Below, in pieces: positions 1-714 of a stretch of 20,871 nucleotides of DNA; position 1 is the first letter of the stretch; every line of letters begins with the position of its first letter. Under the pieces are notes generated by a model. It was given only the letters and a program-made list of their open reading frames with translations. It did not search any database and was not told the DNA's origin. Location: positions 1 to 20,871 of IMG/VR virus record IMGVR_UViG_3300027659_000263. One strand, 5' to 3'. The position numbers and the translations under genes are program-made. Origin of the DNA: a virus.

Positions 1-150
1 GACTGTCCCACCTGATGCAGCCTCTACTCGGATGGCCTCTGCTGGACTCATGTCCCTGCGCCCTGAGAGGCACTGGTAGAGCCATTGTTCGTTGAGGCCG
101 ACCTTCTCGGCGAGTTCTTGGCGCTGCTGCGCTGTGAGTTTGTTGTCCAT
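1..150 (-). CDS. YdaS/Cro-like HTH transcriptional regulator (partial, 3' end outside window)
   Basis: Only the first 50 codons are present; the frame is still open at the window edge. The ATG is at 150-148 on the minus strand. The visible protein begins MDNKLTAQQRQELAEKVG and carries a short helix-turn-helix: 'LAEKVGLNEQWLYQCLSG' at about residues 13-30 gives the turn and recognition helix, followed by 'PAEAIRVEAASGGTV' (36-50). This last pattern (an AxRxExxxGG stretch after the HTH) is typical of YdaS-type antitoxin/Cro-like regulators of temperate phages. It is divergent from the cassette starting at 316, so a role as repressor of that cassette and of itself is the natural inference. No good Shine-Dalgarno sequence precedes the ATG (CTTCTTCGC), so it may be weakly translated or have a very short leader. 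The family assignment is fairly secure; the regulatory role is inferred from position. Confidence 0.75.
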   Translation of the reverse strand, partial: MDNKLTAQQRQELAEKVGLNEQWLYQCLSGRRDMSPAEAIRVEAASGGTV

Positions 151-161
151 GCGAAGAAGTC

Positions 162-174
162 TAGCAGACTGCTA
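162..174. promoter_or_regulatory. putative operator 1, TAGCAGACTGCTA
   Basis: This is a perfect 13-bp palindrome with a single central base, ending 12 bp upstream of the regulator's ATG. It shares the TAGC-N5-GCTA frame with the site at 249-263. It sits in the leader or promoter of the leftward regulator gene, so occupancy would be expected to affect that gene, for example by autoregulation. This is an inference from position and symmetry. Confidence 0.5.
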
Positions 175-207
175 TAGCGTCAAGTCAAGGAATTTGGCTA
201 GGTGTTT

Positions 208-219
208 ACCCTTAAGGGT
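208..219. promoter_or_regulatory. palindrome ACCCTTAAGGGT in the switch region
   Basis: This is a perfect 12-bp inverted repeat midway between the two TAGC-N5-GCTA sites. Its sequence differs from theirs, so it may bind another regulator or host factor. It has no T tract placed to make it a terminator, and a chance palindrome remains possible. Confidence 0.3.
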
Positions 220-238
220 TTTCAGTTGAAATAATTCC

Positions 239-266
239 TTGTGCTGCACTAGCGTGACGCTAGAAT
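239..266 (+). promoter_or_regulatory. candidate early promoter for the rightward cassette
   Basis: TTGTGC (239-244) and TAGAAT (261-266) are separated by 16 bp and resemble sigma-70 -35 and -10 boxes (three and five matches to consensus). A start site near 273 would give a leader of about 43 nt before the ATG at 316. The palindrome at 249-263 fills the spacer and overlaps the -10 box, which would suit repression by steric block. The weak -35 box limits confidence. Confidence 0.4.
249..263. promoter_or_regulatory. putative operator 2, CTAGCGTGACGCTAG
   Basis: This is a perfect 15-bp palindrome with one central base, containing the same TAGC-N5-GCTA frame as the site at 162-174. It overlaps the candidate -10 box of the rightward promoter. 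Its centre lies 88 bp from that of the first site. It is the best candidate for the site through which the leftward HTH protein would shut off the cassette. Confidence 0.55.
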
Positions 267-315
267 CTCACTCAAGCCCTCGCACTGTGCATAGGGACTC
301 AACCAGGAAAACATC

Positions 316-714
316 ATGAAACCCATCAGAATCACACCAGAAAACATCCAAGCCTTGGATGTTGCTCTTAGACAGGTTAACGGTAATGCAAAAGCTCACA
401 CCGTTACTGTTAGTGACATCCTTCTATTTTCAGTGTGGGCTGACAACCAGGTGAAGGATTTGGTTGGCAACAAGAAGGATATGCCTGGCGCAATGGCTCG
501 GTTTCGCAGCGGCTCTGTTTTGCCGAACGCTTACAAGTACAGCCGCAAAGTCACCCGCATCACAATCTATCGGAAAGCCAAGGATTGGTGGCTGACAAAT
601 GTGGTGGCTGATGATGCCAGGAATGATGCTGGTGATATGCGCGTGGTGCTGACCGAGGCGCAGGATGCAATCGCTAAAGCAAAGTTCAGCAAGCAATATG
701 AGGTGTCGAAATGA
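316..714 (+). CDS. hypothetical protein, first gene of early cassette (132 aa)
   Basis: I do not recognise a family. The 132-residue protein is basic and soluble-looking, with no membrane segment. Residues 1-25 ('RITPENIQALDVALRQVNG') look helical. The middle (72-97) has the alternating polar/hydrophobic pattern of beta strands ('TRITIYRKAKDWWLTNV'). The C-terminus is helical. The ATG at 316 is preceded by AGGA at 305-308, a suitable spacing. It is the promoter-proximal gene of the rightward cassette, so it would be the first made when the switch opens. Its stop overlaps the next start as ATGA, implying translational coupling. An early host-interaction or DNA-related role is possible but not shown by the sequence. 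Confidence 0.75.
   Translation: MKPIRITPENIQALDVALRQVNGNAKAHTVTVSDILLFSVWADNQVKDLVGNKKDMPGAMARFRSGSVLPNAYKYSRKVTRITIYRKAKDWWLTNVVADDARNDAGDMRVVLTEAQDAIAKAKFSKQYEVSK

Follow-up and report, generated by a model that had tools for sequence, protein, structure and literature searches.

The 20,871-nt stretch of viral DNA analysed here, referred to as the window, carries a control region between divergent early promoters, and its two dyads are very probably (at roughly 0.85) operators at which a Cro/YdaS-like helix-turn-helix (HTH) protein would repress both the promoter of its own gene, PL, and the divergent promoter, PR. The elements of this region, in coordinates of the window, are the following:

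1–150, minus strand: first 50 codons, encoding the N-terminus, of the Cro/YdaS-like HTH gene, an open reading frame that runs off the window (full length in relatives, 68 aa)
158–163, minus strand: predicted −10 box of PL, the HTH-gene promoter, TAGACT, with the ATG 7 nt after it
161–175, no strand: putative operator O1, from sequence and conservation, ATAGC-AGTCT-GCTAG on the HTH strand, overlapping the PL −10 box
199–219, no strand: central element TAGGTGTTTACCCTTAAGGGT, which includes the palindrome at 208–219 and has the core TAGGTG-N3-WCCCTWW
239–244, plus strand: predicted −35 box of PR, TTGTGC, weak in the window (TTGAC(A/G/C) in 81 of 110 relatives)
249–263, no strand: putative operator O2, CTAGC-GTGAC-GCTAG, between the −35 and −10 boxes of PR and overlapping the latter, arms kept in relatives
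261–266, plus strand: predicted −10 box of PR, TAGAAT (TAGAAT, TAGATA or TAGACT in all 110 relatives sharing the arrangement)
316–714, plus strand: gene for a 132-aa protein without family match that opens the rightward operon; most relatives have other genes in its place

All three palindromes of this region, TAGCAGACTGCTA (162–174), ACCCTTAAGGGT (208–219) and CTAGCGTGACGCTAG (249–263), are perfect and had been placed correctly to the base in the first-pass annotation; the 88 bp it gave between the two dyads is also the centre-to-centre distance of O1 and O2 measured here. Across the 20,871 bases there are just two matches to TAGC-N5-GCTA, and both lie within the control region; dinucleotide shuffles yielded a mean of 0.15 occurrences and two in only 1 of 100 cases. 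Perfect palindromes with arms of at least six bases are frequent in the window (16 vs. about 11 in mononucleotide shuffles), and palindromes by themselves are therefore weak evidence; there is a strong case, from sequence comparison, that conservation among relatives rather than palindromicity decides on the sites. This abundance would suit a reading of the dyads as chance palindromes of A+T-rich intergenic DNA, but in more than 100 diverged regions the arms alone are conserved, and indels are not multiples of three, so that this reading, vanishingly improbable, can be regarded as already refuted. A perfect 21-nt palindrome among the opening codons of the 132-aa gene (AACATCCAAGCCTTGGATGTT, 343–363) was considered as an additional operator and rejected; as it is not conserved in the relatives L001–L004, it is probably a coincidence of the coding sequence.

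A search with the 50 N-terminal HTH residues retrieved 41 viral loci and profile searches added further ones, resulting in 205 loci in all, some of them on repeated contigs, and in 127 distinct 130-nt upstream regions. Seven loci lie in bacterial genomes, all from Burkholderiales (Acidovorax, Polaromonas, Rhodoferax, Paucibacter and Azohydromonas) going by the record titles. Conservation in related phages, a point on which the first-pass annotation had considered its proposal open to refutation, was checked, and the proposal withstands the check: 110 of the 127 regions retain the CTAGC/GCTAG arms, with a proximal O1 at about −25 and a distal O2 at −89 to −127. Over 39 distinct O2 sequences, the columns of CTAGC and GCTAG carry 1.7–2.0 bits each and the five inner ones 0.1–0.7 bits, and kept arms around a free inner five are the pattern expected from a dimer that reads two half-sites without inner contacts. 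Among 25 long contigs, CWAGC-N5-GCTAG is found almost wholly at the switch, and a reversed control pattern gave zero occurrences in the same contigs. The first divergent gene varies among relatives and the control region stays constant, so the conservation is that of the control region itself. The code is also present upstream of HTH relatives in genomes of Comamonadaceae and other Burkholderiales, beside differing neighbours. A recognition-helix stretch, EQ(W/Y)LYQCL(S/T)GR, is common to the Burkholderiales HTH relatives, most of which have the code, and the code is missing in three YdaS relatives whose recognition helices differ, i.e., those of Bordetella PHB09, Escherichia CharmingMan and Pseudomonas PseuP_224. 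A literature search for the site sequences gave nothing relevant. In several sister phages an extra CTAGC-N5-GCTAG lies 5–6.5 kb from the switch (L213:1241–1255, L214:1162–1176, L215:1222–1236, L216:1264–1278, L217:1270–1284 and L218:886–900), with its TAG terminating a conserved gene of 67 aa; this distant site, absent in the window's clade, is possibly an additional operator or a roadblock.

The overlap of the second dyad with a −10 box, already proposed in the first reading of the sequence, is borne out (TAGAAT, 261–266), and the first dyad overlaps a −10 box as well (TAGACT, minus strand, 163–158), which supports the placement of O1 and O2 on two divergent predicted promoters. The PL −10 box reads TAGACT, TAGAGT or TAGAAT in 120 of 125 distinct relatives, and its distance to the ATG is 5–9 nt in all of them. 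Because the gene thus begins 5–9 nt past its own −10 box, the HTH-gene mRNA is probably leaderless. The cI mRNA of phage lambda is known as leaderless. The same applies to the paaR2 mRNA of CP-933P (PMC8630535) and to the cI and cro mRNAs of PY54 (PMC4488713). For PR, most relatives conform to TTGAC(A/G/C)-N16-TAGA(A/T)(T/A), i.e., to a spacer of 16. A good −35 box is missing from most PL promoters, suggesting that the strength of PL depends on a further factor. Both promoters were recognised solely by comparison of relatives: a scan of positions 1–700 for the sigma-70 consensus called no promoter, since the −35 box of PR is weak and that of PL absent. A hairpin in the PR leader beats most shuffles in two sister phages, at L090:2335–2380 and L103:2340–2395, minus strand (z −2.4 and −1.9, respectively); the corresponding hairpin in the window is no better than shuffles.

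With regard to the protein, full-length relatives of the HTH comprise 68 aa and share 94–96% identity. Profile comparison matched YdaS (Cro) of prophage CP-933P (PDB 8co2/8c7k, E ~2e-13), and 8c7k and 8co2 were also the top Foldseek matches of an AlphaFold monomer model of middling confidence (pLDDT 79). The HTH is thus a Cro/YdaS-type protein that matches the N-terminal HTH domain of YdaS in sequence and fold, in agreement with the family assignment of the first-pass annotation; it is a one-domain protein without evident oligomerisation domain. The Pfam name of the family, YdaS_toxin (PF15943), and additional weak matches to HigA would point to a toxin-antitoxin-like module. This is highly improbable, as the window-type protein scores 25.9 bits, below the curated gathering cut-off of 30, no partner toxin gene adjoins it, and the operators, the first place in a lytic operon and the prophage relatives all fit Cro.

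The set of operators differs between relatives. A third site, 21–22 bp from O2 and overlapping the −35 box of PR, is present in 77 of the 110 regions. In prophage-like relatives, three sites (about −71, −47 and −25) adjoin a CI-type gene (L043–L045 and L049–L051), the latter being of the S24 type in L045 and encoding other HTH repressors in L043 and L044. The middle site, retained in sister phages and prophages, has been lost in the window's clade; with O1 and O2 alone remaining, the arrangement resembles a lambda-like operator set that has been reduced. Since a CI-type protein shares the operators in the prophage relatives, the code alone is no proof of binding by the small HTH; no other candidate ligand was found in the window's clade.

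The palindrome between the operators had been attributed to a second regulator. That it is a separate conserved element, distinct from O1 and O2, is supported by the comparison, and it may serve a second regulator. With up to one mismatch, TAGGTG-N3-WCCCTWW occurs in 22 of the 25 long contigs, with few exceptions as a single copy located at the switch, and variants of the element are present in 108 of the 110 regions, the palindrome reading ACCCTTAAGGGT in the window's clade and AACCCTAATAGGGTT or TAGGTGNTTTCCCTA in sister clades. The core flips strand between clades, but TAGGTG itself stays some 50 bp away from the start of the HTH gene. Several candidate explanations were tried and rejected. 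A winged-HTH-like protein of 75 aa (phrog_1368), encoded at 1763–1990 at the end of the rightward operon and patchy among relatives, was rejected as owner of the palindrome, as its gene was not found in G008, G010, G011 and G012, where the palindrome is kept. Essentially a single occurrence per genome speaks against a promoter of a phage single-subunit RNA polymerase; a search for such a polymerase gave no match, but neither did its control. The position upstream of both predicted start sites speaks against an RNA hairpin.

Distances between the elements vary: O2 lies 41.5–44, 50–54 or 61–63 bp from the centre of the central element and O1 34.5–35 or 43.5–46 bp, and in asymmetric, three-operator phages a constant 23 bp separates the centre from O1 in 69 of 69 regions. 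The distances shift in steps of 9–11 bp, which suggests helical phasing of the elements. On a tree, 33 of 46 changes of the O1–O2 distance were found between clusters, and the two sub-intervals showed 7 and 8 changes, figures that recombination may inflate. A permutation test on distinct distances gave p ~0.01, uncorrected for relatedness, and the best single period, for O1–O2 alone, was nearer 12 than 10.5. Of the proposal that the HTH controls both directions through two operators, the part that stands is that the protein most likely uses both dyads as operators; a loop joining the two sites is possible but unproven, and the phasing would also be explained by a shared activator at the central site, without an 88-bp loop by a 68-aa protein. 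The central element might even be the main control, a host or phage activator driving PL and PR in class I geometry, with the spacing steps reflecting contact between activator and RNA polymerase rather than HTH looping. We consider this a serious contender, though at somewhat less than even odds. It gains from the near-uniform single occurrence of the element, from its position (in the window, about 62 bp separate the palindrome centre from the predicted start of PL and about 60 bp from that of PR, with shifts of about one turn elsewhere), from the fixed distance to O1 in three-operator regions and from the general lack of a −35 box in PL. It loses from the missing winged-HTH gene in genomes that keep the palindrome and from the changing half-site spacing (ACCCTTAAGGGT vs. 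AACCCTAATAGGGTT), which is odd for a rigid dimer. Such an activator is compatible with repression by the HTH at O1 and O2 and adds to it.

The genomic setting is best seen in G003, a 34.4-kb genome that is near complete, as both of its ends fall inside the same region. Its HTH gene heads a co-directional run of genes for resolvase, nuclease, primase-helicase, terminase, portal, capsid and tail, and the divergent operon comprises about nine small genes. The HTH operon of G003 also encodes a Vut_1 transporter (L219:11830–12303), a member of the family of queuosine-precursor transporters and unusual for a phage. In near-full-length contigs of the window's clade, some of which are possibly incomplete, as the window itself is a 20.9-kb fragment, neither tyrosine nor serine integrases were found; the long contigs of the clade likewise contain no S24 repressor, and their weak HTH_3 matches are the HTH itself and no other gene. 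The window phage, of freshwater origin, is thus apparently non-lysogenic, and the temperate setting assumed in the first-pass annotation is unsupported, the clade being without integrase, S24 repressor or other CI. A lambda-like lysis-lysogeny switch of a temperate phage, with a repressor looping from O1 to O2, is accordingly an improbable reading. The three operators beside CI-type genes in prophage relatives and the stepwise spacing would accord with it; besides the lack of lysogeny genes in the available, perhaps partly incomplete contigs, it is opposed by the single small domain of the HTH, by the two operators that remain and by a divergent first gene of no known family where no divergent CI-type repressor was found.

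Several characterised switches resemble the one proposed here. In CP-933P of E. coli O157:H7, YdaS, of the same protein family as the window HTH, and the CI-type PaaR2 bind operators over both divergent promoters according to EMSA and DNase I footprinting (PMC8630535; PDB 8co2, 8c7k). As in the window, the operators overlap two divergent promoters and one transcript is leaderless, by prediction in the case of the window. CP-933P differs in its CI-type partner PaaR2 and in a half-site consensus GTTTAGTAA in 18-bp repeats, whereas the window has CTAGC-N5-GCTAG, one operator per promoter, no CI that could be found, a Cro-like gene that is itself predicted to be leaderless, and a conserved central element. 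With lambda OR (Cro, CI) the window shares divergent promoters, operators over promoter elements and a Cro-like gene heading the lytic operon. The prophage relatives resemble OR in their three operators 22–24 bp apart, in contrast to the window's clade with two operators 88 bp apart and neither CI nor integrase found. The telomere phage PY54 likewise has a reduced set of Cro operators and leaderless mRNA (predicted in the window), but its Cro has a single site and leaves its own gene unrepressed, and the phage is temperate (PMC4488713). The Rco switch of pLS20 also combines divergent promoters with two operators tens of bp apart; protein and element are unrelated, and looping, for which evidence was presented there, may or may not apply to the window (PMC4207663).

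On the reading that we prefer, an HTH dimer on O1 would cover the −10 box of PL, the predicted leaderless promoter of the HTH gene itself, from which a long co-directional operon with replication and virion genes starts, and a dimer on O2 would cover the −10 box of PR, the presumed promoter of a few clustered, variable early genes. Both early promoters would be turned down as the HTH protein builds up after infection, as with lambda Cro; autorepression and repression of the divergent early operon are the reading that is supported. The central element would be the site of another regulator, in the simplest case one that activates PL and perhaps also PR. More tentatively, and rather doubtfully, a lambdoid immunity region may have been adopted by phages without detectable lysogeny genes, in which CI was lost, Cro times both early operons and a helically phased regulator at the central element replaces activation by CI.

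CTAGC-N5-GCTAG would thus represent an operator code for a YdaS/Cro subfamily with which uncultured phages can be screened, and the natural spacing variants make helical phasing among operators, activator site and promoters directly testable. Nor can a Cro-type gene, even where its operators are intact, be taken on its own as a marker of a temperate phage.
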